From Lacinutrix sp. WUR7 (GTDB lineage: Bacteria; Bacteroidota; Bacteroidia; Flavobacteriales; Flavobacteriaceae): 64,000 bases of DNA. Position numbers and translations under genes: made by a program. Shown piece by piece: positions 7,116 through 30,234 of this stretch. The stretch's first letter is position 1; each line of letters begins with the position of its first letter. Location: the NCBI RefSeq assembly GCF_016864015.1, contig NZ_CP045067.1:1399001-1463000 (forward strand). The letters run 5' to 3'. The notes under the pieces were generated by a model. It had not been told where the DNA came from. It was given only the letters and a program-made list of their open reading frames with translations, and did not search any database.

Positions 7116-7206
7116 ACCATTCGTCTACACTTCTTTTCTTTTTAACTATAGACATGGTTTGTTAAAAGAATATTTTAAAAATCAGGATAGTCTTCGGTTA
7201 GTTTTG
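7116..7206 (+). promoter_or_regulatory. Box-type regulated promoter A (upstream of the 105-aa gene)
   Basis: The upstream box is ACCATTCGTCTACAC at 7116-7130 (core CGTC at 7122). The -7 element is TAGTTTTG at 7199-7206, 77 bp from the core. A weak half-site AAAAGAA at 7164-7170 sits where the other promoters have AATCGAA. No -33 TTG is present at the usual place, as expected for an activator-dependent promoter. Leader to the ATG at 7230 is about 17 nt. Confidence 0.7.
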
Positions 7207-7229
7207 TGATAGTTAATCCAAACAAAACC

Positions 7230-7547
7230 ATGTTAAAAATAAAAATTTCCCCTCGATTATTTTTGAATATACAAAGTAAAAATAAAAAAAGATCTAAAAG
7301 CCATGCTTCGGTTTATAAAGATCAATTAAAAGAAGAGGATAAAGAATTTAACTTAAAAACTATAGAAAGGTATTCTTTAAATAAAAATATAAGAAATTTA
7401 GAGTTTATTAATTATCTGGAAATGAACTTACAAGACAAGCAATTAAAAAATTTTCCTCTAGAGTTTTTTACAGATTTAAAAACATTAAAACAGCATTCTC
7501 AAAGTAATCTGCTAACAACGCTGCATTCTATTAGCCTTTTCGAATAA
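7230..7547 (+). CDS. Small basic protein of unknown function
   Basis: I do not recognise this 105-aa protein. It has no signal peptide or membrane segment and is very rich in Lys, Asn and Leu, with a basic N-terminal third (MLKIKISPRLFLN, then KNKKRSKSH) and a Leu-rich helical C-terminal half. The start is the ATG at 7230; the longer frame begins with a GTG at 7206 that overlaps the promoter -7 element. It has its own copy of the box-type promoter and lies directly before the H-NOX/LytTR operon, whose box begins 2 bp after its stop codon. That placement makes it a candidate accessory or output component of the signalling system, which is inference only. Confidence 0.65.
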   Translation: MLKIKISPRLFLNIQSKNKKRSKSHASVYKDQLKEEDKEFNLKTIERYSLNKNIRNLEFINYLEMNLQDKQLKNFPLEFFTDLKTLKQHSQSNLLTTLHSISLFE

Positions 7548-7548
7548 A

Positions 7549-7639
7549 ACCATTCGTCGACACTAAAGGGTTATCCGTCGACATTAAAATCACTCTAATC
7601 GAATTAAAAAGTGTTAATCCTGCAATAAAGTTAATTTTG
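7549..7639 (+). promoter_or_regulatory. Box-type regulated promoter B (signalling operon), double box
   Basis: Two boxes are present: ACCATTCGTCGACAC at 7549-7563 (core CGTC 7555) and a second, weaker one with core CGTCGACAT at 7576, exactly 21 bp downstream. The half-site CTAATCGAA is at 7595-7603 and the -7 element TAATTTTG at 7632-7639. Core-to-(-7) distances are 77 and 56 bp; the CGAA to -7 distance is 32 bp. It precedes the operon that encodes the LytTR regulator, suggesting autoregulation. Confidence 0.8.
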
Positions 7640-7664: not shown

Positions 7665-8078
7665 ATGGTGAAAAAACTTAAAATACTTCTTATTGAAGAT
7701 GATATGATTGAAGTAATGAAATTGAACAGAACAATTTCAACATTAAAATTAGATCATAAAATTATTGAAGCAAATAATGGTGAAGAAGCTCTAGAAATCT
7801 TAGAGCAAAAAGATAACTTACCTGATATTATTTTGTTAGATTTAAATATGCCTAAAATTAATGGAATCGAGTTTTTAAGTATTTTGAAAAGTGACGATGT
7901 TTTAAAATACATCCCTACTATTATTTTAACGACTTCTAATAATCAAAAAGATTTGTTGGAATGTTATAAAATTGGAGTTGCAGGATATGTTTTAAAACCA
8001 TTAAAGTATGAGGATTATGTTAGTAAAATTGAAAAATTATTAGCATATTGGAGTATAAATGAATTAATAGTAGTATAA
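7665..8078 (+). CDS. Receiver-only response regulator (first gene of the H-NOX operon)
   Basis: This 137-aa protein is a single receiver domain of the Rcp1/CheY type. The acidic pair is EDD (11-13), the phosphoacceptor is Asp59 in IILLDLNMP, a Thr pair follows beta-4 (ILTTSN) and the Lys is in VLKPLKY. There is no output domain. It is the first gene of a seven-gene operon whose genes nearly abut (1 bp to the H-NOX gene), so it probably receives phosphate from one of the two kinases encoded downstream, acting as a phosphate sink or as a relay intermediate to the Hpt protein. Confidence 0.92.
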   Translation: MVKKLKILLIEDDMIEVMKLNRTISTLKLDHKIIEANNGEEALEILEQKDNLPDIILLDLNMPKINGIEFLSILKSDDVLKYIPTIILTTSNNQKDLLECYKIGVAGYVLKPLKYEDYVSKIEKLLAYWSINELIVV

Positions 8079-8079
8079 G

Positions 8080-8619
8080 ATGAAAGGGATTGTTTTTACG
8101 GAGTTTTTAGAGTTAGTAGAAGATAAATTTGGACTAGAAATGGTAGATAACATTATCTCTAATTCTAAATTAGAATCTGAAGGTATTTATACAGCAGTAG
8201 GAACGTATAGTTTTTCTGAAATGCTTCAACTATTACAACACTTAAGTGAAAACACAGGCATATCTATTGATAATTTACTTTTAGTATATGCAGAGCACTT
8301 TTTTAGTGTGATTGAAAAAAGTTATCCAGGCCTTTTAGCTACTTATAAAGATCCAATAGAAATGATTTCTTCTATAGAGAACCATATTCATGTTGAGGTA
8401 AGAAAAATATATCCAGATGCAGAATTGCCGACTTTTGAAGTCGTAGAAAAAACAGAGAATTCCTTAATAATGATCTACACATCCAGTAGAGCAATGCATC
8501 ACTTTGGTTTAGGCTTAATGAACAAAACGTTTGAGCATTTTAATGCAACAGCGAAAATAGAATTAGAAAAAATTAAAGAAGACGGAACGGAAGTTAGATT
8601 TATTATTCATAAAAATTAA
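8080..8619 (+). CDS. H-NOX (heme NO-binding) domain protein
   Basis: This 179-aa stand-alone HNOB domain is a gas sensor that binds heme b. The proximal heme-ligand His is His104 in HIHVEVRKIYP, and the propionate-binding YxSxR motif is Y133-TSS-R137. Aligned by eye to the thermophilic O2-binding H-NOX, the distal-pocket Tyr (Tyr140 there) corresponds to Phe142, which suggests an NO-selective site that does not hold O2. The start ATG follows the receiver gene by 1 bp and the stop overlaps the kinase ATG (TAATG). In characterised bacteria such proteins modulate an adjacent histidine kinase, and the next gene is one. NO as ligand is inferred from the family. Confidence 0.95.
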   Translation: MKGIVFTEFLELVEDKFGLEMVDNIISNSKLESEGIYTAVGTYSFSEMLQLLQHLSENTGISIDNLLLVYAEHFFSVIEKSYPGLLATYKDPIEMISSIENHIHVEVRKIYPDAELPTFEVVEKTENSLIMIYTSSRAMHHFGLGLMNKTFEHFNATAKIELEKIKEDGTEVRFIIHKN

Positions 8620-10577
8620 TGAGTCAAAATCAATCAGAAATATTACAACGTGCTTTAAAAAGAGAAAAAGCGGCAAGAAAAGAAGCCGAAAAAATTCTTG
8701 AAGAAAGATCAAGAGATTTATATTTAACATCCCAAAAACTAGAAGAACTTCTAGACGAAAAATCTTCACAACTTCAAGGGGTATTCGAAAATATTGTAGA
8801 TGCATACGTAGTTATGGATATACAAGGAAATTTTATAAAATTTAATGAAGCGGCAACCAAGTTATTTGGTTACGATATTAGTAGAGATGAAGTGAACGTT
8901 GTAGATCTTGTTTATAAAGAAGACTATGTATACGCCGTCTCTTCCTTTATGGAACTACAAACAAAAGGATATTTTAAAAACTACGAAGCAAGAGTGTACA
9001 CCAAATCTAAAGAGGTTAAATGGGTGCACATAAATGCAAGTATGATTTTTGATAAAGATAAAAAACCAGTTGCAGCACAAGGCATTGTTAGAGATATAAC
9101 CCACCAAAAAGCATCCGAAGAAAAATTAATAGAATCTGAAAATAGATTAGCATCGCTTGTTGTAAATCTAGATAGTGGTATTGTATTAGAAGATGAAAAT
9201 AGAAATATAGTACTTACCAATAATAAGTTTTGTGAGCTTTTTAATATTAATGCAGCGCCTAAAGATTTAGTTGGTTTAGATTGTAAAGCTGCATCCGAAC
9301 AAAACAAAGTCTTATTTAAAAATTCGGACGCTTTTTTAGAAAGGATGCAAACTATTGATGCCGAGAAAAAAGTAGTACTTGGTGATGAGTTAGAGATGCT
9401 AGATGGCAAAATATTAGAACGTAATTATACACCAATAAAAATAGGAGAAAAGTCTAAAGGGTATTTATGGACCTTTACAGATGTTACCCTAAAAAGAACG
9501 TATAGAAAAAGCCTAGAAGCACAAAAGCAAAAGTATTACAATATTATAGCAAATATGAATTTAGGAATGATGGAGTTGGATAACAACGACCAAATCCTAA
9601 TGGTAAATCATAGTTTTGAAAAAATGTCTGGCTATACCGAAGCGGAAGTTAAAGGGAAAAATGCAAGAGAGCTTTTTGCTGCCAAAGAGGACGCTGAAAT
9701 ACTAAAAGCAGAACGACAAAAACGAAAGGAAGGAGCGTCAAGTTCTTATGAGTTTAAAGCAATATGTAAAAAAGGAAAAACTAGACATTGGCTAGTTAGT
9801 GGTGCACCAAACTATAATATAGATGGCGAAATAATTGGGTCTATTGGTATTCATTTAGATGTTACTGAAACAAAGAACCTAGAACTTCAAAAAGAAAAAC
9901 TATTAGAAAAACTAGAAAAAAGTAATGATGAGCTTCAAGAATATGCACACATTGTCTCGCATGATTTAAAATCTCCTTTACGAAGTATACACGCATTGGT
10001 TAGCTGGTTAAAAGAAGATAATCAAGGTAAATTAGATGCGGTAAGTCTACAAAACTTCGGACTTATAGAAACTACCTTAGAGAAAATGGAACAACTGATT
10101 ACAGATGTTTTAAATTATTCTAGCCTAGGAGCAGATACCTCTTTAAAAACAGACGTAGATCTAAATAGCTTAGTAAATGAGCTGGTATCTATTTTATATA
10201 TTCCGGATCATATAGAAATTAAAAGTCTTCATGTTTTACCAAACATCAATGGGGATAAAACGAAATTACAGCAGGTATTTCAAAACCTAATTAGTAATTC
10301 TGTTAAGTTTATAGATAAAAAATGTGGTAGCATTATTATTGATGTAGAAGATTTAAAAAGTCATTATAAATTTTCTATTAAGGATAATGGAATTGGTATT
10401 GAAAAAAAGTATCACGATAAAATATTTAAAATATTTCATTCCTTAAAGAAAAGTAAAGATTCCTCGGGAATAGGTTTATCTATCGTTAAAAAAATCATCA
10501 ATTTACATGAAGGTGAAATCTGGTTAGATAGCGAGCCAAAGGTAGGAACCACTTTTTATTTCACATTAAAAAAATAA
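8619..10577 (+). CDS. Multi-PAS histidine kinase coupled to H-NOX
   Basis: This 652-aa cytoplasmic kinase starts with a charged coiled coil (about 8-52), followed by three PAS domains (about 53-165, 175-290 and 303-422). The HisKA domain has His448 in HIVSHDLKSPLRS, and the HATPase_c domain has the N box (NLISNSVKF), DNGIGI and SSGIGLSIVKK. There are no membrane segments. It is translationally coupled to the H-NOX gene, the usual arrangement for an H-NOX-associated kinase. The C-terminal catalytic part closely resembles that of the second kinase in the operon (shared blocks HDLKSPLRSI, SSGIGLSIVKKI, GTTFYFTLKK), suggesting duplication. The expected phospho-targets are the receiver at 7665 and the Hpt/LytTR pair. 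Confidence 0.94.
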   Translation: MSQNQSEILQRALKREKAARKEAEKILEERSRDLYLTSQKLEELLDEKSSQLQGVFENIVDAYVVMDIQGNFIKFNEAATKLFGYDISRDEVNVVDLVYKEDYVYAVSSFMELQTKGYFKNYEARVYTKSKEVKWVHINASMIFDKDKKPVAAQGIVRDITHQKASEEKLIESENRLASLVVNLDSGIVLEDENRNIVLTNNKFCELFNINAAPKDLVGLDCKAASEQNKVLFKNSDAFLERMQTIDAEKKVVLGDELEMLDGKILERNYTPIKIGEKSKGYLWTFTDVTLKRTYRKSLEAQKQKYYNIIANMNLGMMELDNNDQILMVNHSFEKMSGYTEAEVKGKNARELFAAKEDAEILKAERQKRKEGASSSYEFKAICKKGKTRHWLVSGAPNYNIDGEIIGSIGIHLDVTETKNLELQKEKLLEKLEKSNDELQEYAHIVSHDLKSPLRSIHALVSWLKEDNQGKLDAVSLQNFGLIETTLEKMEQLITDVLNYSSLGADTSLKTDVDLNSLVNELVSILYIPDHIEIKSLHVLPNINGDKTKLQQVFQNLISNSVKFIDKKCGSIIIDVEDLKSHYKFSIKDNGIGIEKKYHDKIFKIFHSLKKSKDSSGIGLSIVKKIINLHEGEIWLDSEPKVGTTFYFTLKK

Positions 10578-10579
10578 TA

Positions 10580-11713
10580 ATGAAAACAGTACAACTAGTA
10601 AAACATAAAAATAAAGATTGGGAATATGTTAATGAAAAACAGGACTTAAAAGAACCTTTAGTCTTGGTTTTTGGTAATAGATATATGTTAGAAGATCAAG
10701 TTGTTTACAGTGATATTAGACAGTTATTCCCAGATGGACATATTGTTTTTGCATCTTCTTGTGCAGAAATTTCATCGAATACTGTAAATCAAGATAGCGT
10801 TACTATAACTGCTATCGAGTTTGAAAAAAGTACGTTTATAATTAAAACAAGTAATGTTTTAAACGCAGATTTAGATAGCTATAAAACAGGAAACGAACTT
10901 ATTCAGCAATTGCCTCAAGAAGGTTTAAAATATGTATTTGTAGTATCTGAAGGTAGCTTTATTAATGGTAGTCAACTTACCAAAGGGATGAGTGCTTCTA
11001 CAGACGATAATATAATTATAACTGGAGGTTTATGTGGCGATGATGCACGTTTCGAAAAAACATTAGCTTCTTATAATGAAAGTCCGAAAGAAGGAGAATT
11101 AGTTGCTGTTGGTTTTTATGGCGATACCTTAGAAATATCTTTTTCCATTCATGGAGGATGGACACCATTTGGTCCAGAACGTATTGTGACTAAATCTAAA
11201 GGCAATATTTTATATGAGTTAGATGGGCTGCCAGCACTAGATTTGTACAAAAAATATTTAGGAGATAAAGCAAAAGACTTACCAGGAGCTGCTTTGTTGT
11301 ATCCTTTAAATGTAACCTCTACAGACGAAAAACAATCTATTGTTAGGTCTATTTTAAATATAAATGAAGAAGACAACGCTGTAATCTTAGCAGGAGATAT
11401 TAAAGAAAACTCTAAAGTGCAGTTAATGATGACCAATGTAGATAATATTGCAAACGCATCAGAACGCGCAGCAAGACAAGCATTAGAATACAGAAAAAAC
11501 AAACCAGAACTAGCAATATTAGTTAGCTGTATTGGTAGAAAGTTAGTATTAGATCAACGTGTGGAAGAAGAAATTGAAGAAGTCATTGAAGTTATAGGTA
11601 AAGACACCATAACTAGTGGTTTTTATTCTTACGGAGAAATTGCTCCTTTTCATGGCGAAATGGCTTGCCAATTACACAATCAAACCATGACCATAACGTT
11701 AATAAGTGAATAA
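10580..11713 (+). CDS. FIST domain protein (NosP-like candidate)
   Basis: This 377-aa soluble protein has FIST_N (about 25-215) and FIST_C (about 220-370) sensory domains. Recognisable blocks are LVLVFGNRY, GGLCGDDARF, HGGWTPFGP and DGLPALDLYKKYLG. Some FIST proteins, named NosP, bind heme and NO and regulate an adjacent kinase; His191 in IHGGW is a candidate heme ligand, but I cannot confirm heme binding from sequence. The gene lies 2 bp after the H-NOX kinase and overlaps the next kinase gene by 1 bp, the classic FIST-kinase pairing. Its presence in the same operon as H-NOX is unusual. Other FIST ligands (amino acids or other small molecules) remain possible. Confidence 0.9.
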   Translation: MKTVQLVKHKNKDWEYVNEKQDLKEPLVLVFGNRYMLEDQVVYSDIRQLFPDGHIVFASSCAEISSNTVNQDSVTITAIEFEKSTFIIKTSNVLNADLDSYKTGNELIQQLPQEGLKYVFVVSEGSFINGSQLTKGMSASTDDNIIITGGLCGDDARFEKTLASYNESPKEGELVAVGFYGDTLEISFSIHGGWTPFGPERIVTKSKGNILYELDGLPALDLYKKYLGDKAKDLPGAALLYPLNVTSTDEKQSIVRSILNINEEDNAVILAGDIKENSKVQLMMTNVDNIANASERAARQALEYRKNKPELAILVSCIGRKLVLDQRVEEEIEEVIEVIGKDTITSGFYSYGEIAPFHGEMACQLHNQTMTITLISE

Positions 11714-12777
11714 TGAATTCATTATTAAAAAGACAAATTCGTAAGTTTTTAAGCGACGACTTAAAAAACAATGAGGGTATAACAGCGTTTATTAATGCTG
11801 TAGATTTGTCTTATAATAATTTTGATGAACAGTCTGTCATGATTCAAAGAGCAATGGCTATTAGCTCTGATGAGTTATATGTTGCTAATAGAAAATTACA
11901 AAAGGAAGCAGACGAGCAAAAGGAAGTTATTGATAAACTTAAAAGTGTTATTGATACTCTAAAATTTTATAATTTAAAAGAAGACGAAAAAGAAGAAGAA
12001 GTAGAATTAACAGGTTCTAATTTGGTAGATTTTATTGATAATCAAACTAAAGAAATTGTAAAGATGAACAAGCAAAAGCAATCCATGCTAAACGAACTTG
12101 CGCATCAAAATCAAGAACTTAGCGATTATGCGCACATGGTATCTCACGATTTAAAATCACCATTACGTAGTATAGATACATTAACCGCTTGGTTGTTGCA
12201 AGATTATGAAGAAGAATTAGATGATAACGGAAAAAACACATTAAAACTGATACGAACCAATGTGGAAAAAATGGATACCTTAATTAGTGGTATTTTAGAA
12301 TATTCAACCATTGGAAAAAATCGAATTAAAGTTTATGAAGTAGATGTAAATAATCTCATTGAAGAAATAATAAATAGTATTCATACTCCAGATCATATTC
12401 GTATTACAAAAACCAATTTACCAATAATTAAAGGCGATAAATACAGACTACAACAACTGTTTCAAAACTTAATTGGTAATGCTATAAAGTATAATGATAA
12501 AGCTCAAGGAACTATTGATATTGGAGTAGAAGATCAAGATAAATATTGGCAATTTTATATAAAAGATAACGGAAAAGGTATTGAAGAAACCTACTTTAAT
12601 AAAATTTTTAAAACCTTTGAAAAGTTAGAAAACAATCCAGAATCCTCAGGAATAGGATTATCTATAGTAAAGAAAATTGTCGAATTATATGGTGGCAAAA
12701 TATGGCTAGAATCACAAGTCAATTTAGGAACCACTTTTTATTTCACCTTAAAAAAATCCCCAAATGGAACAACCTAA
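11713..12777 (+). CDS. FIST-associated histidine kinase
   Basis: This 354-aa cytoplasmic kinase lacks PAS domains. The N-terminal segment (residues 1-60, NSLLKRQIRKFLSDDL ... AMAISSDELY) is the helical region typical of kinases encoded next to FIST proteins. A coiled coil with an acidic stretch follows (about 60-130), then HisKA with His145 in HMVSHDLKSPLRS, and HATPase_c with NLIGNAIKY, DNGKGI and SSGIGLSIVKK. Its catalytic half is closely similar to that of the H-NOX kinase, so both probably phosphorylate a common set of receivers. The start overlaps the FIST gene by 1 bp; the end overlaps the Hpt gene by 14 bp. Confidence 0.93.
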   Translation: MNSLLKRQIRKFLSDDLKNNEGITAFINAVDLSYNNFDEQSVMIQRAMAISSDELYVANRKLQKEADEQKEVIDKLKSVIDTLKFYNLKEDEKEEEVELTGSNLVDFIDNQTKEIVKMNKQKQSMLNELAHQNQELSDYAHMVSHDLKSPLRSIDTLTAWLLQDYEEELDDNGKNTLKLIRTNVEKMDTLISGILEYSTIGKNRIKVYEVDVNNLIEEIINSIHTPDHIRITKTNLPIIKGDKYRLQQLFQNLIGNAIKYNDKAQGTIDIGVEDQDKYWQFYIKDNGKGIEETYFNKIFKTFEKLENNPESSGIGLSIVKKIVELYGGKIWLESQVNLGTTFYFTLKKSPNGTT

Positions 12778-13081
12778 TCAATCTTACATTAACAGCCTGT
12801 CTGGAGGTGATGAAGCCTTTAAACAAAAACTAATAGATGTTATTAAAAAAGAGTTTCCAGAAGAGAAACAGGTGTATCTTAATAACTACAATGCTAAAAA
12901 TTATAAGTTAGCAGCAGATAATGTGCATAAACTTAAACATAAAATTAGTATTTTAGGGCTCGAAAAAGGTTATGAAGTTGCGGTAGTGTACGAAAATAAT
13001 TTACTGGAAGGTACTACAAACCAGAAAGAAGCATTTGAAACTATCTTAAACAGCATAACAGAATATCTAGAAGAAATTTAA
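12764..13081 (+). CDS. Histidine phosphotransfer (Hpt) protein
   Basis: This 105-aa all-helical Hpt domain has the phospho-accepting His55 in DNVHKLKHKISILG, matching the HxLK core of the family. It shuttles phosphate between receivers. It overlaps the upstream kinase by 14 bp and is followed 9 bp later by the LytTR regulator. A phosphorelay from the two kinases through the receiver at 7665 and this protein to the LytTR receiver is the simplest wiring. That order is inferred from gene content, not shown. Confidence 0.9.
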   Translation: MEQPNQSYINSLSGGDEAFKQKLIDVIKKEFPEEKQVYLNNYNAKNYKLAADNVHKLKHKISILGLEKGYEVAVVYENNLLEGTTNQKEAFETILNSITEYLEEI

Positions 13082-13090
13082 ATATACCAT

Positions 13091-13804
13091 ATGAATTGTA
13101 TTGTAATTGACGACGAAGCTACTGCAAGAATGATTATTTCTCAATTATGCTCAAACGTACCAAGTCTTAATGTTTTAGAAGAGTTTCCTAATGCAATGCA
13201 AGCCATTAAATACTTAAATCAAAACGAAGTTGATTTAATTTTCTTAGATATACATATGCCAGATTTTACAGGTTTCGATTTTATTGAAACACTAAAAAAT
13301 CCGCCAAAAATAATACTTACCACATCCGATCCTAACTTTGCAATCCAAGCTTTTGAGTACGATTGTATTGTCGATTATTTGGTAAAACCAATAACACAAG
13401 AACGTTTTAATAAGGCTATAGGTAAAGCCGAAGCGAAACAAAGCAAACCGGTTGCAATACAATCAAAAACGGAAAAAGTAGAAGCTACTTCTGGTAACGA
13501 TTTGTATGTAAATATAGACAGACGCTTAATTAAAATAGACATACCAAGTATTTATTTAGTGGAAGCAAAAGGAGATTATATTCAAGTTAAAACCGAAGAT
13601 AAAAACTATACCGTACATTCTACTTTAAAGAAAATAGAAGACAAACTACCAGACGATTTGTTCTTAAAAGTGCACCGATCTTATATAATAAATATTCAAA
13701 AAATTATAGATATTGAAGATAACAGTGTGCTTATTAAAAAGGATGTTATTCCTGTAAGCAGATCGAATAGACCAGAGTTAATGAAGCGTTTAAATCTGTT
13801 ATAG
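13091..13804 (+). CDS. LytTR family response regulator
   Basis: This 237-aa protein has a receiver domain (1-118; DDE at 7-9, phosphoacceptor Asp53 in FLDIHMP, Lys in YLVKPIT) and a LytTR DNA-binding domain (about 140-237; IYLVEAKGDYIQV, STLKKIEDKLP, FLKVHRSYIIN). It is the last gene of the seven-gene operon and the only one with a DNA-binding domain, so it is the natural output. LytTR proteins bind repeated half-sites about two helical turns apart. Seven promoters in this window, including this operon's own, share a two-part box at fixed distances from the -7 element and are the best candidate targets. The pairing is inference. Confidence 0.95.
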   Translation: MNCIVIDDEATARMIISQLCSNVPSLNVLEEFPNAMQAIKYLNQNEVDLIFLDIHMPDFTGFDFIETLKNPPKIILTTSDPNFAIQAFEYDCIVDYLVKPITQERFNKAIGKAEAKQSKPVAIQSKTEKVEATSGNDLYVNIDRRLIKIDIPSIYLVEAKGDYIQVKTEDKNYTVHSTLKKIEDKLPDDLFLKVHRSYIINIQKIIDIEDNSVLIKKDVIPVSRSNRPELMKRLNLL

Positions 13805-14020: not shown

Positions 14021-14091
14021 ACCACTCGTCTACACTTTAAATTGCGCTAATCGAAAAACATAAAACGGAACTCGCTTTCCTAATAGTTTTG
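14021..14091 (+). promoter_or_regulatory. Box-type regulated promoter C (CAP lipoprotein)
   Basis: Box ACCACTCGTCTACAC is at 14021-14035 (core CGTC 14027), half-site CTAATCGAA at 14047-14055, and the -7 element TAGTTTTG at 14084-14091. Core to -7 is 57 bp and CGAA to -7 is 32 bp. The ATG is at 14114. Confidence 0.8.
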
Positions 14092-14113: not shown

Positions 14114-14608
14114 ATGAAAAAATTAGTAGTTATTACAGCCGTTTTATTAAATACATTTTTAATGTCTTGCTCTGTTGAAGAGGAAGTTAGTGCTTCAGGA
14201 AATTCTACAACAGAAGTTGTAAATGTAACATACACAACATTAGATTATGAAATTGCAGAGCTTATTAATGCGCACAGAATTTCACAAGGACTTAATACTT
14301 TAAATATTCTTAATGCAGCATCCAAAGAAGCAATTGTACATAATCAATATATGGCTACTCAAGGTGTTATTAGTCATGATCATTTTAGTGCGCGTTCTCA
14401 AAATTTAAGAGATGCCGTAAATGCCAAAAAGGTTTCAGAAAATGTAGGCTATGGGTATAGTAGTGCTGCATCTATAGTAAACGCGTGGTTAAATAGTGAA
14501 GGACATAAAGAAGCTATAGAGAATCCAAGCTATACCGACTTTGGTATTTCTTCAAAAGAAGATGAAACAGGTAGTAATTACGTAACAAACATCTTTGTAA
14601 AGCTATAA
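14114..14608 (+). CDS. CAP/SCP-domain lipoprotein (YkwD-like)
   Basis: This 164-aa lipoprotein has a signal peptide ending in the lipobox LMSC (Cys19), followed by a short linker and a CAP domain (about 40-164). Family blocks are visible: IAELINAHR, HNQYMATQ, SHDHFSAR, SENVGYGY and WLNSEGHKEAI, including the conserved His and Glu residues of the CAP cavity. Bacterial CAP proteins are extracytoplasmic and of mostly unknown biochemical function. The gene is monocistronic with its own box-type promoter, which ties it to the same regulon as the signalling operon and the polysaccharide genes. Confidence 0.9.
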   Translation: MKKLVVITAVLLNTFLMSCSVEEEVSASGNSTTEVVNVTYTTLDYEIAELINAHRISQGLNTLNILNAASKEAIVHNQYMATQGVISHDHFSARSQNLRDAVNAKKVSENVGYGYSSAASIVNAWLNSEGHKEAIENPSYTDFGISSKEDETGSNYVTNIFVKL

Positions 14609-14731: not shown

Positions 14732-17338
14732 ATGATAACAAAATTACACATCTTAAAAAATCAAATAGTAATCTTAGCAGTAGTGTTGTTTAGCATAACA
14801 ATACAAGCACAGAATACCCCTTTTAATTGCGATTTTAGTGCTTACTTGTTTCAACGTAATGATGTGTACGCAATAGACTTGGCATCTGGTAATTCTTTCT
14901 TAGCTGCAACAGATATTACACCTGGGAATATTAATGCTACAGCTTATAATCCTGCAGATGGTTTTATTTGGGGATATTTAAGTACACCTTCTAAAACAAT
15001 TGTTAGAATTGGTAAAGATTTTCAAACAACTTCTTTTACAATACCAGAATTAACAACAGGAAATAAGTATGTTGGAGATATTAGTCCGGACGGTATTTAT
15101 TATTTTAAAGCTGGCGGAAAAAGCTATTTTAAAATTGATTTAAATCCAGACTCAGCAACCTATGCACAATACCTATCTACAGAAAATTTAACGCAAAATA
15201 TTAGCATTCATGATTGGGCTTTTAATGCAGTAGATGGTAATATATATGCAGTAGAAAAAACTTCAAATATTTTATATAGAATAGATCCTACAACAAGTGT
15301 GGTACAAGCTTTAGGTGAAGTGCCAATTTTATCTGGATTAAACTATACGTACGGAGCCGTTTATTTTGATGCAGATGGTCGTTTTTACGTATCGGCAAAT
15401 CAAACAGGAACTGTTTACGTGATACAAAGCGTTCAAGATTTAAACACGACATCTACTATGGACTCTAATTTATTTGCATTCGGACCATCAAGTTCTAGTA
15501 ACGATGGTGCACGTTGTCCTACAGCTCCTGTAGCACAAGAGATTTGCGATAACGGTATTGATGATGATGGCGATGGTTTAATAGATTGTGAAGATCCTTC
15601 TTGTTCTGGTTTTGGTAGCTGCGAAGTGATTGCGCCTCCAACAACAGCTAACGATGGTGGTTTAGAAAGTAACGGAAGATTATCGGAAGCGATCAGCAAA
15701 CGTAATTTTAATCGTGCTAAAAAGAGCTATGCGTTTGACCAAAAGTCGGCAAAACGTGTTACTCCAAATCCTGTAAATTATACGAGCAGAACAACCAATG
15801 ATTTTCAATTACAGGACTTTGTACCATTAACAACTATTAACGAAGATTATGCAGTAGAATCTACACCTACAGACTTATTAAACATTACCAATGCAACAGA
15901 AGTATACGCTGTAGATTATATGCAAAACGATGCATCTGTAGCTTCTATATTAGCTTTAAAAACAGAAAACGGAGTTTATGAACACACAAAATATATTTGC
16001 GATAGGTTATTAGGAGCAGAATTAATTTCGGTTTCTACCATAGATATCAATGAACAAGCGTTTATTAAATCCATTATAAAAAATGCAGATGGTTCTTTTG
16101 AATATGTTTTAAGCTTATCTGCTAAAGTAGCTAACAACGATAATAATTTTGCAATAGAAAGTCACTGGAATTTAGATGTATATGAAGAAAATGTAACCTT
16201 TTATAACTTTCAAATTTGGTCAAATTCTATAGATGATTTATATGGCTTGTCTCAAGAAGTCTTAAACTTATTAGAAGTAGTAAAACCAATTTCTGGTTAC
16301 GAGTTATCTACGCCTCCAACCGTTTTTGTAAGAAAAGGAAAGTATAACAATGGCGCTTTAGATCTTCAAATAATAAATACCAATGCAACCGAAAATGTAA
16401 CTTTCGATTCTGGTTTTAGAGAAACAGAAACTAGCGACTTTAACTATACATCTTCAAACCTGAATTTAAACGAAAATTACATTACAGAAATTCAAGTACC
16501 AACAGGAAATTTATTTGATGTCGGATTTAGAATTGGAGATGGCATAAACACACCAGATGATTTATTTATGTCGGATGGCCCTTGGGGAATTGACGATTCG
16601 CAATCCAGTACAGAAGTTACTAACTACGCTATTTCGCCAAATACAAATAATTTTGATACAGCAGATTTCCCAATAGAAAGAAACCTAACATTAAGTGCAT
16701 ATACAAGTACTTATTTTGCAGCTTACAGAGCATTAACACCACGTTTTAAAGCAGTAGATGTAACTAGTTACGATAACTTTAAACTTAAAGCAAAAGGGAC
16801 AGGAAACTTAGAAATTACTTTAGTAAAACAAAGCATCACGAATTGGGAAGAGCAATACAAAACAACTATTGCTTTAACAGAGAATTACCAAAGTTTTGCA
16901 ATACCTTTTTCAGCATTTGCATCTGTATTAAATACCGAATTACAAGCAAATGATGTGGTTACCATAGTATTTACCATGGTAAGCGAAGACGGAACAAGAA
17001 CAGCAAAAGAAATGCATGTACAAGATGTACGTTTCTCTACAGGAAATACCTTATCTGTAAATGATTTTGAAACAGAAACAACAACCACTTCTGTAAAAGC
17101 GTATCCAAATCCAATGCAAAATGCATCTAACATTCACTTTAGTACCAATCAAAATGAAACAGTACAACTAGTTATCTATAACCAATTAGGTAAAGTAGTA
17201 TTTCATAATACAGTAAAAGCACAAGCAGGAAAAAACCAAATAGCAATAGAAAGAAATAATCTAAGTTCTGGTTTATACATCTGTAAAATAATAAGTTCAC
17301 AAACCCAATATAGTCCCTTGAAGTTACTCGTGAAGTAA
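14732..17338 (+). CDS. T9SS-exported surface protein with beta-propeller-like N-terminus
   Basis: This is an 868-aa secreted protein. Residues 1-27 form a signal peptide ending near IQAQ. Residues 30-260 read like a DUF6923/beta-propeller domain with repeats of the type NPADGFIWGY, SPDGIYYF and NAVDGNIYAVEK. A Cys/Asp-rich putative Ca-binding motif follows (about 270-298, DNGIDDDGDGLIDCEDPSC), then a long central region with no family I recognise. A type A T9SS sorting domain (about 795-868, YPNPMQNASNIHFS ... LKLLVK) ends the protein. It is monocistronic with its own box-type promoter and a terminator. An adhesin or matrix-protein role fits the regulon but is inference. Confidence 0.85.
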   Translation: MITKLHILKNQIVILAVVLFSITIQAQNTPFNCDFSAYLFQRNDVYAIDLASGNSFLAATDITPGNINATAYNPADGFIWGYLSTPSKTIVRIGKDFQTTSFTIPELTTGNKYVGDISPDGIYYFKAGGKSYFKIDLNPDSATYAQYLSTENLTQNISIHDWAFNAVDGNIYAVEKTSNILYRIDPTTSVVQALGEVPILSGLNYTYGAVYFDADGRFYVSANQTGTVYVIQSVQDLNTTSTMDSNLFAFGPSSSSNDGARCPTAPVAQEICDNGIDDDGDGLIDCEDPSCSGFGSCEVIAPPTTANDGGLESNGRLSEAISKRNFNRAKKSYAFDQKSAKRVTPNPVNYTSRTTNDFQLQDFVPLTTINEDYAVESTPTDLLNITNATEVYAVDYMQNDASVASILALKTENGVYEHTKYICDRLLGAELISVSTIDINEQAFIKSIIKNADGSFEYVLSLSAKVANNDNNFAIESHWNLDVYEENVTFYNFQIWSNSIDDLYGLSQEVLNLLEVVKPISGYELSTPPTVFVRKGKYNNGALDLQIINTNATENVTFDSGFRETETSDFNYTSSNLNLNENYITEIQVPTGNLFDVGFRIGDGINTPDDLFMSDGPWGIDDSQSSTEVTNYAISPNTNNFDTADFPIERNLTLSAYTSTYFAAYRALTPRFKAVDVTSYDNFKLKAKGTGNLEITLVKQSITNWEEQYKTTIALTENYQSFAIPFSAFASVLNTELQANDVVTIVFTMVSEDGTRTAKEMHVQDVRFSTGNTLSVNDFETETTTTSVKAYPNPMQNASNIHFSTNQNETVQLVIYNQLGKVVFHNTVKAQAGKNQIAIERNNLSSGLYICKIISSQTQYSPLKLLVK

Positions 17339-22695: not shown

Positions 22696-22766
22696 TCCAT
22701 TCGTCTATAGCAACATGTAACCCATCTAAAACCCCCTATTTTACTGATTTTTATAACGCAAATTTG
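22696..22766 (+). promoter_or_regulatory. Box-type regulated promoter F (GT4 gene)
   Basis: Box TCCATTCGTCTATAGC starts at 22696 (core CGTC 22702), half-site CATCTAAAA is at 22723-22731, and the -7-like element CAAATTTG at 22759-22766. Core to -7 is 57 bp; half-site C to -7 is 33 bp. The ATG is at 22804. Confidence 0.7.
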
Positions 22767-22803: not shown

Positions 22804-24024
22804 ATGAAACTAGCAATCGTAACAGCATATCCTCCAAGTAAAGTAACATTAAATGAGTATGCTTACCATTTAGTAAAGCACTTTAGACAAAAAGATAATG
22901 TTACTGAAATTGTTTTATTAACAGATAAAACCGAAGGAGCAAAAGACATCGATTTTACAGAAGATGGTTGCAAGGTTACAGTAAAAGAATGTTGGGAGTT
23001 TAATAGCTATGCAAACATTATAAATGTTACTAAAGCCATTAATAATACACAACCAGATGCAGTATTATTCAACTTACAATTTATGAAGTTTGGGGATAAA
23101 AAAGTAGCAGCAGCTTTAGGGTTAATGTTACCATTGGTTTGTAAACTAAAAAAGATTCCTAATATTGTTTTATTGCATAACATATTAGAAGAAGTAGATT
23201 TAGGATCAGCGGGATTTACAAGTAATAAAATCATGCAAAAAGCATACGGCTTTATAGGAACTAGTTTAACAAAGTTAATTTTACAAGCAGATACGGTTGC
23301 AGTAACCATGCAAAAATATGTTGACATTTTAGAGACAAAATATAATGCTAAAAATGTGACTTTAATACCTCACGGAACTTTCGAAATTTCTGAAGAAAAA
23401 CCAGAATACAGCTTGCCACAAGGACCTTTACAAATAATGACTTTTGGTAAATTTGGTACATACAAAAAAGTAGAAGGTATGATTGAAGCAGTTGAGAAAG
23501 TAAGAGCGTCTACGGGATTAGATCTTGAAGTTGTAATTGCAGGAACCGACAACCCAAATGTGCCAGGTTATTTAGCAAAAGTGCAAGAAGATTATAAGCA
23601 TGTGCCACAAGTGCGTTTTACTGGATATGTAGAAGAATATGAAGTGCCAACCTTATTTAAAGAAAGTGCAGTAGTTGTATTTCCATATACATCAACAACA
23701 GGAAGTTCAGGAGTTTTACACCAAGCGGGAAGTTACGGTAATGCCGTAGTGATGCCAGATTTAGGAGATCTTGCTTTATTAGTAAAAGATGAAGGTTATA
23801 AAGGAGAGTTTTTTGATCCAACATCTGTAGATAGTTTAGCAACTTCAATTGAAGCTATTGTAACTAACGAAGCACACAGAATTACTTTAGGAAAAGCTAA
23901 TTATCAAGCTGCAACTGCATATCCAATGGGGAAAATCGCAAATATGTATTTAAATAATTTTGATAGAATTATATCTCAGAAAACACTACAAAGACCAACA
24001 GTATTACAACCTGCTACGGCATAG
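22804..24024 (+). CDS. GT4-type glycosyltransferase
   Basis: This 406-aa GT-B fold enzyme has an N-terminal Rossmann domain opening with AIVTAYPPSKVTLNEYA, typical of GT4 acceptor domains. The C-terminal donor-binding domain has a phosphate-binding loop near MTFGKFGTYKKVEGM and the donor-site segment TSTTGSSGVLHQAGSYGNA, in the place of the usual Glu-rich motif. There is no membrane segment; it acts at the cytoplasmic membrane face. It is a single gene under box promoter F. Together with the GT2 enzymes and the flippase it suggests synthesis of a lipid-linked saccharide repeat. The sugar donor cannot be told. Confidence 0.88.
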   Translation: MKLAIVTAYPPSKVTLNEYAYHLVKHFRQKDNVTEIVLLTDKTEGAKDIDFTEDGCKVTVKECWEFNSYANIINVTKAINNTQPDAVLFNLQFMKFGDKKVAAALGLMLPLVCKLKKIPNIVLLHNILEEVDLGSAGFTSNKIMQKAYGFIGTSLTKLILQADTVAVTMQKYVDILETKYNAKNVTLIPHGTFEISEEKPEYSLPQGPLQIMTFGKFGTYKKVEGMIEAVEKVRASTGLDLEVVIAGTDNPNVPGYLAKVQEDYKHVPQVRFTGYVEEYEVPTLFKESAVVVFPYTSTTGSSGVLHQAGSYGNAVVMPDLGDLALLVKDEGYKGEFFDPTSVDSLATSIEAIVTNEAHRITLGKANYQAATAYPMGKIANMYLNNFDRIISQKTLQRPTVLQPATA

Positions 24025-26906: not shown

Positions 26907-29900
26907 TAATTCGGACTTCCTATATATGTATTAATTTCTATTTTAATATAACTAAAATCGGGATGGTCAATTTTTTGTAATTGTGCATCACTATGATTTT
27001 CTATTCTGTTTGGCACTATTTTTCCAGCAATAGCATCGTTTGGTAAACCATTTACAAAAATGTTTTGCATGTCTGTATTTATGATTTTCACTGCACCATC
27101 TTTCAGTATTTCGTATTCAAAATCTTGCTTGCGTTGTTGTCGCACGCCTTCTTTTACAAATAGATGATCTACCCAAACCATCTCTTTATTTTGGTCATAA
27201 TAAGTCACTAAAAGCTGAGGTATGGTAATTTCTTGGATGCCACTATTAAATAAGTTTCCGTTGATGGTGCCTTCTTGAATAGTAATGGCGCTTAGCACGA
27301 CGTTTTTATACAAGTCAGATCCAGATACATTTCCTGCAATTTGTAAGTTGAATTTAGTGGGTTGTTCTTCAAATTCGATAGGCGTAAATTCGTCTGGATT
27401 AAACGTATCTGGAATAGAATCTTGCGTTCTAGACCAGGCAATACCTTCAAAATTAATACGGAAACTACTTGATTCTTTCGGCATTAATTTATGCTTCACA
27501 TGATACTTCGCATTATATGTTGCTAATTGTTTGTTGGCATCGTTGTACAAGGTTCCTTTTAAAATAACATCTGCAGGCACATTGTCTATATTTTGTACTT
27601 CCCCAATAATAGCATAACTGCCATCATACTGTACCAATTTAGCAGAGACTACTTCTAAAACAGGTTGTTTTAAAATGTCTTCATGATGGGTTTGTTGGGT
27701 GGTAATACGTCGTCTACCTTGGTTGAAATACTTGGTTGCATTAGCAGAATAGAGTTGGTCTGGCGGTAAATCGTTGTTTAAATCGTCTGGTTGTAAATAC
27801 CATTTTCCTTTTCGTTTGGATAGCGATTTATAATCCACTTTTTCAATTTTCTCTAAAGGCGTAATCCATTGGCTAGTCACTTTTGCCGAAACGGTACTGT
27901 CGTTATGTTTGGTGATTTCGGTTGCAATAGCATCCATTTTTGCATAGCTACTTAGTAAACCATCGGTTACCGAAATCTCTAACATGTATTGTGCAATTGG
28001 TAACTGATTTTCAGGATCGATTAAACTATGTGCTTTTTCAAATTCTTTAAAATCTAAAGCGTCATAATAGGCAATAATGGCATTTTCCGGACTGCGTTGC
28101 GAATCGTTTTTTAGGTAGAATAAATAAATACCATAAAATACGGCAACGGCTAATATTAAAGACCAAATGTGCGTAATACGTAAAACAGTTCGCGGGAATT
28201 TATTGTAAGTCGTTGGAAACTTTAAATAGTCAGGAATGGGTTTAATTCGCGTTTTTAAAGCATTAACCCAAAGCATTTGTATGTTTAAAACAAAGGCAAT
28301 TAAAACGGTTAAAAACGGAATAATTCCCCACATTAATTTTACCCATTTAGCAACATCTTCTTTTGGTAAAATAGATGAAACTGGCGGAATGTTTAGTCGT
28401 TCCCAAACCATGATGCCATTTTCTAATTGTCGTAATCGTTGCCAACCACAGAAGTAGAGAATGGGATCGTAAAATTTATCGTTAGAAAATATATATTTAA
28501 GATTGTATTTTTCTGGAGTAGTTAAAAACTGCTGAAGCGAACCAATTCCGGCAACCCCTTTAAATTTGGAGTTTTCTAAACGCTCGATAGGCCTAGTGGT
28601 TAACTCTGGTAATCGTCTTGCAGAATGGTAGTTACCATCCACTGTCATCGCATTCGTTTGTGCACTTAACCAAGCCATTTGATCGCCAAAACCAAGAGTT
28701 AAAAATCGCCATTTATCGTGGTCATCTTGATTTAAGAAATTCACTATAGGTAACATCTTAATTTTCTGTGGTTGCGATGGTCTAAAATAGTTTAAACTCA
28801 TAGTAAACACAACCATAAATACCATGAGTCCTGCTAGTATGCCGCCAATAATACGATGGTAAATAGCACCAAATTTGTTCTGAATTAATTCTTTTAAATC
28901 GCCTTCCACAAAACGATAGGTGAATTCACCTAACATAGGTATGGACAATATAGAAGCCCAAAGTGTAAATCGGTCAAGCGTTAAAATATTAAATGCCGTT
29001 TCCCCTAACATTTTTAAAGGTACAGGAGTGGTTCCTCCAGTTCCTAAAATGGTACAAATGGTTATGGATAGTCCGAAAAACAAGTATCGTTTGCTATAAT
29101 ATCTGTAGAATATATACGGTAATAATACGAGTAATATTCCCCAAGGAATTAAAAAGAATACCAATCCGGAGGAGGTGATTTCCAAAAAATTATCTCGAGA
29201 ACCATGCGGAATGGGAACTTGGGTAATTGGGTTGGCTTTCGAGTTGAGCCAATACGGAAAAATGCATCCTATAATTAAAACTAAGGATAACATTCCGAAG
29301 CTTACAATACGTTTAAACAACTTAAAAAAGCTATTCAAAAATATTTTGAAGGTGACTTCTTTCATGGTGTTTACTTGCTCTCTAGAAACATCCATAATAA
29401 CCATTCCTATTAAAGGAAAGATAAAAAAGATCATCCCGAAAATGGGAGTTACATGATGTGAAGTCACGGTAACAGCAATTAAAGATAAGGAGGTTGCTAA
29501 GTACCATTTCTTACCTGTTTTTAGCCACAAATAGATTTCTGGTAAGGCATGCATTAAAACAGATACACCTATTATACTTGGTAATTGTCCGAAAATATGA
29601 AGTGTTTCTACAAAAGAAGAACTAAACACTGCTAAAATAGCAGCATAACCAGCAACTGTTTTGTTACCCGTCATCATTAAAGAAAAACGATAAGCTCCTG
29701 TGATAAATAGAACAATTGCAATTAGGGCAACACTAAACATTCCAAATTTTAAACCGCCAATCATAGACAAGAGTCCAATAGATTGGTGTACTAACGGCGG
29801 ATAACTCTGTACTGTAAAACCAGTGTACCATTCATAATTCCAAGGTTCAAACCAGCTATTTGCATAATGATCTGCGAAAAACAGGTGTATTAACGCATCA

Positions 29901-29995
29901 TAAGTAGTTTCCAAAGTGAAAAATATGGCACTACCATGAAATGCTAATCCTAAAAGGATGGCAACGATTAAGTATTTATTTGAGGTTTCTTTCAA
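26906..29995 (-). CDS. Large GT-C-like membrane protein with periplasmic C-terminus
   Basis: This 1029-aa protein has a membrane half (about 1-410, 10 or more helices) resembling the GT-C/PTPS-related membrane family: an acidic residue in the first periplasmic loop (Asp33 in ETTYDALIHLFFADHY) follows the first helix. Further membrane segments lie near 560-580 and 620-640. The C-terminal 380 residues are extracytoplasmic, beginning with an NTF2-like stretch (ENAIIAYYDALDFKEFEKA) and followed by beta-rich modules. The start is a TTG; an in-frame stop lies two codons upstream and the first helix begins at once. It could be the polymerase or a lipid-sugar-dependent transferase of the locus; this is a structural guess. 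Confidence 0.7.
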   Translation of the reverse strand: MKETSNKYLIVAILLGLAFHGSAIFFTLETTYDALIHLFFADHYANSWFEPWNYEWYTGFTVQSYPPLVHQSIGLLSMIGGLKFGMFSVALIAIVLFITGAYRFSLMMTGNKTVAGYAAILAVFSSSFVETLHIFGQLPSIIGVSVLMHALPEIYLWLKTGKKWYLATSLSLIAVTVTSHHVTPIFGMIFFIFPLIGMVIMDVSREQVNTMKEVTFKIFLNSFFKLFKRIVSFGMLSLVLIIGCIFPYWLNSKANPITQVPIPHGSRDNFLEITSSGLVFFLIPWGILLVLLPYIFYRYYSKRYLFFGLSITICTILGTGGTTPVPLKMLGETAFNILTLDRFTLWASILSIPMLGEFTYRFVEGDLKELIQNKFGAIYHRIIGGILAGLMVFMVVFTMSLNYFRPSQPQKIKMLPIVNFLNQDDHDKWRFLTLGFGDQMAWLSAQTNAMTVDGNYHSARRLPELTTRPIERLENSKFKGVAGIGSLQQFLTTPEKYNLKYIFSNDKFYDPILYFCGWQRLRQLENGIMVWERLNIPPVSSILPKEDVAKWVKLMWGIIPFLTVLIAFVLNIQMLWVNALKTRIKPIPDYLKFPTTYNKFPRTVLRITHIWSLILAVAVFYGIYLFYLKNDSQRSPENAIIAYYDALDFKEFEKAHSLIDPENQLPIAQYMLEISVTDGLLSSYAKMDAIATEITKHNDSTVSAKVTSQWITPLEKIEKVDYKSLSKRKGKWYLQPDDLNNDLPPDQLYSANATKYFNQGRRRITTQQTHHEDILKQPVLEVVSAKLVQYDGSYAIIGEVQNIDNVPADVILKGTLYNDANKQLATYNAKYHVKHKLMPKESSSFRINFEGIAWSRTQDSIPDTFNPDEFTPIEFEEQPTKFNLQIAGNVSGSDLYKNVVLSAITIQEGTINGNLFNSGIQEITIPQLLVTYYDQNKEMVWVDHLFVKEGVRQQRKQDFEYEILKDGAVKIINTDMQNIFVNGLPNDAIAGKIVPNRIENHSDAQLQKIDHPDFSYIKIEINTYIGSPN

Positions 29996-30163
29996 CGGTT
30001 AATTTTTATTATTCATTTATAGGTCAGTTGTAATATCCATAACCATGTGTTTACTAGTCCTATTAATATATAGGGATATTTCATTTAAAGCCTAAGTTCT
30101 AATAATATGGTAAAGATAAATAAATATAATAGTGCTTTCATTTTTAATTATCTATAGCAATCT
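29996..30163. other. Divergent intergenic region
   Basis: AT-rich DNA lies between the divergent membrane-protein gene and box promoter G. I see no convincing -7 element for the minus-strand unit and no box in the minus orientation. Confidence 0.4.
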
Positions 30164-30234
30164 ACCATTCGTCGACACTTAGCTATAGGTTAAACTAAAT
30201 AACAATTTTAGGGCTGTCTTCTCCTGTACATTTG
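30164..30234 (+). promoter_or_regulatory. Box-type regulated promoter G (receiver-GT2 operon)
   Basis: Box ACCATTCGTCGACACTT starts at 30164 (core CGTC 30170), half-site AAACTAAAT is at 30192-30200, and the -7 element TACATTTG at 30227-30234. Core to -7 is 57 bp; half-site C to -7 is 32 bp. The ATG is at 30266. Confidence 0.8.

Follow-up and report, generated by a model that had tools for sequence, protein, structure and literature searches.

The window analysed here is a stretch of 64,000 nt from the genome of the marine flavobacterium Lacinutrix sp. WUR7 (NZ_CP045067.1, positions 1,399,001-1,463,000, forward strand), and all coordinates are given as positions within it. It carries a sensory operon together with genes for surface and polysaccharide proteins:

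7231..7547, + strand, small ORF between promoters P1 and P2 (ATG at 7231; a longer GTG ORF runs from 7206)
7665..8078, + strand, single-domain response-regulator receiver (Pfam PF00072, 1.2e-22)
8080..8619, + strand, H-NOX (haem-NO-binding) sensor protein (Pfam PF07700, 2e-39)
8619..10577, + strand, histidine kinase with PAS domains, apparently three (Pfam)
10580..11713, + strand, FIST-domain protein, NosP-like (Pfam PF08495/PF10442)
11713..12777, + strand, second histidine kinase (Pfam HisKA/HATPase_c)
12764..13081, + strand, probable histidine phosphotransfer (Hpt) protein (conserved His and fold matches)
13091..13804, + strand, LytTR response regulator, proposed binder of the box (Pfam PF00072, 2.5e-18; PF04397, 1.1e-21)
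14114..14608, + strand, CAP-domain protein, P3 target (Pfam PF00188)
14732..17338, + strand, DUF6923 protein with a T9SS C-terminal sorting domain, P4 target (Pfam)
20760..21038, + strand, STAS-domain protein, P5 target (ATG at 20760, ORF listed from TTG 20718; weak Pfam PF01740)
21067..22311, + strand, polysaccharide flippase, Wzx-like (Pfam PF13440)
22804..24024, + strand, glycosyltransferase group 1, P6 target (Pfam PF00534)
30266..31450, + strand, receiver fused to glycosyltransferase family 2, P7 target (Pfam PF00072 and PF00535)

The lone receiver kept D59 in all 79 aligned rows. H-NOX proteins are marked by a proximal His and a YxSxR motif; H102, Y133 and S135 were found in 78/78 rows and R137 in 66/78, with K in its place in the remaining 12. 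The H-NOX gene lies directly 5′ of the kinase gene 8619-10577, and the FIST gene also stands beside a kinase gene, the context that defines NosP together with the FIST domain in PMC12570481. The product of 12764..13081 gave no match in the Pfam search. H55 was present in 81/81 aligned rows, the structure model consisted of five helices (pLDDT 94.4), and the best Foldseek matches were the Hpt domains of BarA and Shewanella (3iqt, 3myf; TM 0.63-0.77, probability 1.00), with E values of only 0.025-0.05 and none below 0.001; the conserved His and the fold matches suggest that this is probably an Hpt protein. LytTR was the sole DNA-binding domain that Pfam found in the operon, and its phosphorylatable D53 was kept in 81/81 rows. 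A phage or plasmid source of this regulator was rejected, the matches there being distant (all below 60% identity). The small ORF between P1 and P2 had no match in the Pfam search and showed tblastn relatives in 13 of 80 orthologous loci.

A preliminary description of this DNA had claimed a shared box at fixed distances from the -7 element of seven promoters. Re-checking the sequence returned the same seven cores (CGTC or CATC at 7122, 7555, 14027, 14642, 20656, 22702 and 30170) and exactly the same distances from core to -7 (77, 77, 57, 56, 57, 57 and 57 bp for P1 to P7). The promoters were scored with R1, a model trained on 54 promoters, all from other species, or with R2, a three-site promoter model:

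7117..7206, + strand, P1: box 7117-7131, degenerate units at +21 and +42, -7 TAGTTTTG at 7199-7206, distance 77; R2 43.4 bits
7550..7639, + strand, P2, the sensory-operon promoter: units at 7550, 7571 and 7592, -7 TAATTTTG at 7632-7639; R2 59.7 bits
14022..14091, + strand, P3: two units 22 bp apart, -7 TAGTTTTG at 14084, distance 57; R1 54.7 bits
14637..14705, + strand, P4: two units 21 bp apart, -7 TAGATTTG at 14698, distance 56; R1 54.9 bits
20651..20720, + strand, P5: two units, -7-like CATCTTTG at 20713, distance 57; R1 23.6 bits, partial
22697..22766, + strand, P6: two units, -7-like CAAATTTG at 22759, distance 57; R1 26.8 bits
30165..30234, + strand, P7: two units, the second degenerate, -7 TACATTTG at 30227, distance 57; R1 36.5 bits

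With up to three mismatches, CCATTCGTCTACACT matched the window nine times, compared to 0.88 expected, and none of 100 shuffles reached nine. Six of these matches are promoter boxes (7117, 7550, 14022, 14637, 22697 and 30165), and three lie in other places (18078 on the minus strand, 25482 and 48337); the P5 box at 20651 has four mismatches and hence falls outside the list. The -7 element reads TAnnTTTG exactly in five promoters and is one-off in P5 and P6. The box proved to be a single unit in a direct repeat of two or three, spaced at a period of 21 bp (sometimes 22), with a distal core ATTCGTCKACA and a degenerate proximal unit (..YCGAA..) whose CGAA-like core starts 32-33 bp ahead of the -7. 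The second half-site of the preliminary description is the box unit again, 21-22 bp further down, and is degenerate in P1 and P7. The extra core at 7576 was likewise found where it had been reported; with 7555 and ~7600, however, it forms three units of a single array, which explains the distance of 77 as 56 + 21. The proximal unit occupies the usual position of the -33 element, and, as had been noted, none of the seven promoters has a TTG beginning at -29..-19 before the -7. Direct (or inverse) repeats with a period of ~21 bp are the layout of LytTR-type targets, and nearly all LytTR sites consist of repeats of 9-11 nt, 11-13 nt apart (PMC4847170), a spacing that corresponds to the 21-22 bp period seen here.

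Scanning the 3.99-Mb genome with R1 (150 of 9309 first-look candidates scored; matches kept at E ≤ 5) placed the seven window promoters as the best 8 of 33 matches, P2 counting twice; P2 was also the top R2 match. The next R1 match, an eighth promoter unlinked to the window (E 0.03; R2 6e-5), has the box, a second unit at +21 and TACCTTTG, an exact TAnnTTTG, at distance 56, and precedes a gene for a GEVED/Ig-domain protein. The regulon is thus mostly local, with seven promoters in 23 kb and one elsewhere. The genome-wide box scan called for earlier was informative only in this form. The word alone (up to two mismatches) gave an uninformative 137 matches against 127 for the reversed control, and the box with a fixed 57-bp gap (up to three mismatches) gave 5 against 4, so that the whole-promoter model alone parts signal from noise. 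At up to one mismatch, 5 of 10 word matches lay outside the window (1366540, 1627225, 1723247, 1754158 and 1785193); these were treated as chance, none being among the 33 R1 matches.

The control-level counts would fit a dispersed repeat or an AT-rich coincidence, but this reading is refuted by the R1 ranking and by the orthologous loci. The 80 loci and the window together held 140 box/-7 pairs (up to two mismatches) at distances 56, 57, 77 or 78, and at most two at any of 116 other distances tested; this identical phasing bears out the claim that it is not due to chance. All 557 profile matches in the 80 loci lay on the operon strand (training rows included). In 20 loci with a divergent LytTR protein (54-65% identity), a second unit stood at +21 in 17 (up to 4/12 mismatches), and no other downstream offset had more than one. 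Box promoters also co-occurred with the LytTR orthologue: in the family sample they were found in 56 of 199 genomes, namely in 56/83 with the orthologue and 0/116 without (Fisher 3.5e-29), and in the phylum sample in 10/19 with and 0/277 without (Fisher 7.6e-14), values that overstate independence because the genomes are phylogenetically related. In these samples 24 (family) or 16 (phylum) candidates were scored per genome under stricter filters, and absences are not exhaustive. Among the 27 of 83 orthologue-bearing genomes without an R1 match at E ≤ 1e-4, we inspected 17 by eye and script and found the box clearly present ahead of the operon in 16 and weak in L226; only part of them had a -7-like element at 56-57 bp. 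L244, one of three further divergent loci with R1 matches, had no box before the operon. Taken together, we regard coincidence as practically negligible.

This co-occurrence supports the earlier nomination of the protein at 13091-13804 as candidate regulator, and it is very probably the reader of the box. With 15 LytTR matches in the genome, the sites could be shared with a paralogue, and the box might be read by one of the 14 others or by a factor encoded elsewhere. An ORF adjoining the LytTR paralogue at 3768293 (L245 3055) has a single isolated exact 11-mer, ATTCGTCTACA, ~240 bp ahead of it, but this 11-mer was rejected as a promoter site, since it has neither a second unit at +21 nor a -7-like element within 130 bp. 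As, in both genome samples, the promoter was confined to genomes with the operon's own LytTR orthologue, and 77 of 78 loci had the box ahead of the LytTR-bearing sensory operon, a different reader seems very improbable. An alternative sigma factor was rejected as reader because the -7 is an ordinary TAnnTTTG and the units extend ~80 bp upstream of it.

The same genes were found behind the box in relatives. It lay 5′ of the CAP gene in 24 of the 25 loci having that gene, of the DUF6923 gene in 68 of the 71 loci that matched it, of the STAS gene in 32 of 39 (none detected in the other 7) and of the group 1 glycosyltransferase gene in 29 of 40 (none detected in the other 11). The STAS gene and the Wzx-like flippase gene after it probably share a transcript. 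Orthologues of the same targets are also preceded by box promoters when they lie on other contigs or at a great distance, as for a DUF6923 orthologue that sits away from the operon in L208 and L209; these remote sites bear out the view that signalling, surface and polysaccharide genes form a single regulon.

We consider it likely that the boxes are bound by the operon's LytTR protein, acting as an activator in a gas (NO) phosphorelay that controls itself and surface and polysaccharide genes. From the sequence we infer that this protein would read direct repeats two helical turns (21 bp, sometimes 22) apart, with the proximal unit covering the -33 place, so that it could dock RNA polymerase where a promoter has no -33 TTG. 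Since the unit covers this place and the TTG is missing, LytTR is most likely an activator. To our knowledge, activation at Bacteroidota promoters without a -33 element is little described. Repression is the opposite possibility: the proximal unit overlaps the -33 position, where bound LytTR could block RNA polymerase until the gas signal relieves it, and among LytTR regulators CoxC, whose three direct repeats overlap the -35, acts as a repressor (PMC11347149). However, a TTG at -29..-19 was depleted (7 of 130 promoters, compared to 18% expected), and its lack in the other 123 indicates apparently weak core promoters that need help. Moreover, the spacing to the -7 varies by no more than 1 bp among unrelated genes and across genera, a precision that simple obstruction of the polymerase would not need. 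We therefore regard repression as improbable.

In the activation scheme, haem in H-NOX, and in the FIST/NosP-like protein of those loci that have one, would be the binding site for NO, and these sensors would control how active the neighbouring kinases are; phosphate would then pass to the Hpt protein, perhaps also to the lone receiver, and on to D53 of LytTR. The third unit, 21 bp farther upstream at the sensory-operon promoter, may provide positive feedback. Outputs would be the sensory operon itself, the CAP and DUF6923 proteins, STAS-Wzx, the glycosyltransferases and the distant Ig/GEVED-domain protein, and the nature of these targets suggests that the cell surface or matrix changes under gas control. 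The same regulon might instead answer to a signal other than NO, with H-NOX reading oxygen or redox or with the PAS kinase dominating. The kinase at 8619 does carry PAS domains, a strict anaerobe's H-NOX is reported to be an O2 sensor (PMC9814294), and FIST at ≥50% identity was not found in 25 of the 80 loci, some of them cut short. On the other hand, two unrelated NO-receptor families stand side by side in most of these loci (H-NOX in 77, FIST at ≥50% identity in 55), and the H-NOX and NosP partners of other bacteria respond to NO (PMC8738867 and PMC12570481). We consider a different signal unlikely, though with an appreciable chance, and keep NO as the preferred one.

The component parts are of known kinds, but neither their combination nor the box turned up in the papers searched. 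YpdB of E. coli and AgrA of Staphylococcus aureus share the receiver-LytTR build, and an AgrA dimer occupies a pair of direct repeats (PMC4227749). The window regulon differs in its repeat word, in its Bacteroidota sigma-A type promoters (-7 TAnnTTTG instead of -35/-10) and in mixing two-unit with three-unit promoters. Bacteroidota sigma-A promoters also carry a -33 TTG. The -7 TAnnTTTG is that of flavobacterial sigma-A promoters (PMC9723704), but here the LytTR array takes the place of the -33 TTG. RcoM1 and CoxC, which act on CO oxidation genes, offer a gas-linked LytTR output like the one proposed here, and RcoM1 has a built-in sensor. According to PMC11347149, CoxC-type operators consist of three direct repeats that lie beside the promoter and are spaced by two helical turns; P2 clearly shows such a triplet and P1 a degenerate one, whereas P3 to P7 have two units. 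CoxC senses CO by its own membrane domain and represses (same source), in contrast to the separate haem-protein, kinase and Hpt genes and the putative activator of the window. The output regulators of the Vibrio H-NOX and NosP pathways are not known to be LytTR proteins. In Vibrio fischeri, control of syp exopolysaccharide by H-NOX, kinase and the SypF Hpt domain is given in a review as the likely route, and in other Vibrio species H-NOX or NosP kinases feed LuxU (PMC8738867 and PMC6769237). These systems resemble the window operon in haem NO sensor, kinase, histidine phosphotransfer and polysaccharide or biofilm output; unlike them, H-NOX, the FIST protein, two kinases, a receiver, Hpt and LytTR stand here in one putatively autoregulated Bacteroidota operon. 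Open-licence PMC literature yielded no such LytTR box or Bacteroidota H-NOX/LytTR pathway among the matches listed, and four box words occurred there only in three papers, which title and abstract mark as unrelated.

The arrays would constitute a sequence-readable cis-code for a Bacteroidota two-component regulon, common to many genera of one family, and the proposed output for co-encoded H-NOX and FIST proteins is transcription of surface and polysaccharide genes, not cyclic-di-GMP enzymes. Tentatively, as a serious possibility rather than an expectation, Flavobacteriaceae and some other Bacteroidota may channel two unrelated haem NO receptors (H-NOX and NosP-like FIST) through one Hpt protein to a LytTR activator that replaces the missing -33 contact of sigma-A. 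Promoters would differ in strength according to whether they have two or three units. As the sensor operon would have the strongest array, surface glycan and T9SS proteins would come under an NO switch that amplifies itself and is nearly closed. The sites, the spacing and the targets are all defined, which makes the regulon model testable step by step.

P7 was rejected as a universal target, as its box was absent in all seven testable relatives. No profile match was found within 700 bp in these seven, which have a complete 5′ gene end; the best lone unit within 300 bp had one mismatch in L082 and two to four elsewhere, with no -7-like element at 56-57. A P7-type promoter was present in L212.

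The preliminary description had proposed that seven promoters (P1 to P7) between 7116 and 30234 share a two-part box at fixed distance from a -7 element (TAnnTTTG or one-off). Re-checking agreed on the positions of all seven boxes and on their distances to the -7. When up to three mismatches were allowed, the word occurred nine times in the window versus 0.88 expected by chance, and six of these nine were the claimed boxes. Genome-wide, the word alone remained at control level, as did the word combined with a fixed 57-bp gap at three mismatches. Therefore, a test on the full promoter architecture was needed.

The footprint set comprised the best 80 of 376 loci with a relative of the response regulator LytTR (13091-13804), all named records with 82 to 99% identity; among these, the closest named orthologue is that of Lacinutrix himadriensis (99%). 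The exact 13-base word was found 109 times in the 80 loci, compared to 0 for the reversed word. Box/-7 pairs with up to two mismatches, counted in the 80 loci and the window, clustered at distances of 56 (30 pairs), 57 (43), 77 (56) and 78 bp (11), a total of 140, while every other distance within 20 to 139 bp yielded at most two. The 140 pairs represent 130 promoters, and all 130 lay on the operon strand, with both strands searched. Alignments were built from 54 of 63 two-unit promoters (A1) and 58 of 67 three-unit promoters (A2); those of the window (5), locus L031 (4) and nine other promoters were omitted. Both displayed the box and the -7, with a proximal ..CGAA.. unit in between. The units follow a 21-bp register of TCGTCKACA, a middle unit CTAACG.. 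and then CAATCGAAA, so that the distance of 77 equals 56 plus one extra unit; some two-unit promoters had a 22-bp step. In 20 loci with a divergent LytTR (54 to 65% identity), the second unit was often identical to the first, and an extra unit (at most 4/12 mismatches) was present at +21 in 17/20 and at -21 in 7, with other offsets seen at most once each. A TTG at -29 to -19 occurred in 7 of 130 promoters, against an expectation of 18% calculated over every TAnnTTTG site in the 80 loci. This scarcity argues that the proximal unit replaces the -33 element.

Profiles derived from A1 (R1) and A2 (R2) were used to scan the Lacinutrix sp. WUR7 genome (a single contig of 3,987,475 bases, of which the window covers 1399001-1463000). 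R1, scoring 150 of 9309 first-look candidates, gave 33 matches at E<=5 and ranked all seven promoters first (the top eight matches, two of them P2), which sustains the earlier proposal for the complete promoter where the word by itself had failed. R2, scoring 150 of 11275 candidates, gave 49 matches at E<=5, led by P2 and P1 and followed by P4, P3, one additional site and P7. This site lies in front of a gene encoding a GEVED and Ig-like domain protein:

1032018-1032068, minus strand: eighth promoter (R1 E 0.03, R2 E 6e-5), with a box followed at +21 by a second unit, and TACCTTTG as the -7 at distance 56

The detected regulon of this genome thus consists of seven promoters within 23 kb and an eighth that lies about 380 kb away from LytTR. 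An isolated exact ATTCGTCTACA (about 3766554; 3055-3065 of fetched stretch L245) lies roughly 240 bp upstream of an ORF adjoining a LytTR paralogue at 3768293; a second unit and a -7 were looked for there, and neither was present. On the minus strand of the window, 32990-53619 carries AMP-binding, acyltransferase, MMPL and ketosynthase domain genes, which we take to resemble a flexirubin/aryl-polyene pigment cluster. The profile scan revealed no convincing box promoter in this stretch.

P2 is the predicted promoter of the sensory operon, whose gene products were assigned by Pfam:

7665-13804: lone receiver, H-NOX, PAS kinase, FIST protein, second kinase, small protein and LytTR

The small protein (12764-13081) had no Pfam match. 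Its His55 is present in 81/81 aligned rows, and structure prediction returned five helices (pLDDT 94.4). In Foldseek, its top matches were Hpt domains, one from BarA and one from a Shewanella kinase (probability 1.00 and TM 0.63-0.77, with E values of 0.025-0.05 and no match below 0.001), and the protein is probably an Hpt protein. The order receiver, H-NOX, Hpt and LytTR was conserved in 77 of 80 loci, and FIST was found at >=50% identity in 55. One Tamlana nanhaiensis contig carries the whole cluster twice with all match positions identical (L092 and L093), reflecting either a recent duplication or assembly redundancy. In two sampled genomes the LytTR orthologue is present twice, the copies being separated by about 1.2 kb in G115 and by 16.6 kb in G406.

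LytTR is the sole DNA-binding domain that the operon encodes, according to Pfam. Co-occurrence of LytTR (orthologue cut-off E<=1e-60) and box promoters (R1 cut-off E<=1e-4) was followed in 199 genomes of the family, evenly drawn from a larger group, and in 296 of the phylum; the two samples share some genomes. In the family, 83 genomes had an orthologue and 56 an R1 promoter, all 56 within those 83, whereas none of the 116 genomes without an orthologue had one. In the phylum, the orthologue was present in 19 and the promoter in 10, again all within the 19. Fisher tests gave 3.5e-29 and 7.6e-14, respectively, values overstated by shared ancestry. An R1 match was absent in 27 of the 83 family genomes with an orthologue; single absences are weak, as stricter filters left 24 (family) or 16 (phylum) scored candidates per genome. 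The 20 divergent loci comprised 17 from these 27 genomes and three from genomes with R1 matches (G087, G102 and G062). Upstream of the receiver gene, 16 of the 17 had a clear box and L226 a weak one; among the other three, it was found in L234 and L243 and not in L244. A -7-like element at 56 to 57 bp was seen in only some of the 20 loci. These computational data strongly support the operon's LytTR as the predicted reader of the box. G348, from another family, holds an orthologue (80% identity) and three box promoters, possibly through horizontal transfer.

The missing -33 element and a phasing tight to 1 bp lead us to favor LytTR as an activator. Repression, in which LytTR overlapping the -33 region blocks transcription, is less favored for the same reasons, although CoxC is described as a LytTR protein that overlaps the -35 and represses (PMC11347149). 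Judging from gene content and from H-NOX and NosP signaling in other bacteria (PMC8738867, PMC6769237 and PMC12570481), the operon may form a phosphorelay that runs from the kinases through the Hpt protein to LytTR and responds to NO. In Vibrio fischeri, H-NOX is considered likely to act via an Hpt step on an exopolysaccharide regulon (PMC8738867). LytTR sites usually consist of 9- to 11-nt repeats 11 to 13 nt apart (PMC4847170), and triplet repeats have been described (PMC11347149). Among the matches listed from open-licence literature, we found neither this box, nor H-NOX or FIST sensors that signal to a LytTR regulator, nor such an autoregulated operon in Bacteroidota.

The regulon is real and conserved. 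The 80 loci contained 328 merged promoters, 63 of them without an assigned window gene.

Table. Loci with a box promoter <=400 bp upstream of the gene
Receiver operon: 77/78
DUF6923 (14732): 68/71
CAP (14114): 24/25
STAS (20760): 32/39
Glycosyltransferase (22804): 29/40

The window gene 30266-31450 encodes a fusion of a receiver domain with a glycosyltransferase of family 2 (receiver-GT2), an unusual pairing. Its box promoter was found in the window and in stretch L212; the phased box was not detected in any of the seven relatives with a complete 5′ end, and in two others the locus stops short of it. In seven relatives the gene is on the opposite strand, and most of these have upstream, in place of the phased box, a word resembling TATCGATAAAAA or ATCGGTAAAAA. 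Between P1 and P2 lies a small, fast-evolving ORF (7231-7547), for which tblastn finds relatives in 13/80 loci; box promoters recur near P1's relative place upstream of the operon in several loci without a recognizable copy.

Twenty stretches were fetched, including G174's own operon (L206) and the eighth site (L213). Eight sites preceded DUF6923 orthologues (L208, L209), STAS-Wzx (L211, L214), receiver-GT2 (L212) and related GT2 genes (L210, L221, L222). L209 (G107) alone shares a contig with its LytTR, 0.93 Mb apart; the other seven are on separate contigs of draft genomes and may be neighbors. About 2 Mb from its LytTR operon, G174 has three box promoters (L205) before receiver, outer-membrane efflux protein (OEP) and phosphoribosyltransferase genes, and its regulon appears rewired. 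The L223 site, 0.5 Mb from LytTR, precedes a lectin-domain gene. Some further sites precede genes without a Pfam match, and a simple ORF caller found no ORF or a short one at L215, L216, L217 and L218. In G062, a 238-bp tandem array (L247, 3406-4062; 2.8 copies, 96% match) bears box-like promoters in three copies (profile E 3e-6 to 1e-4), and the -7 of the first copy ends in TTTA instead of TTTG.
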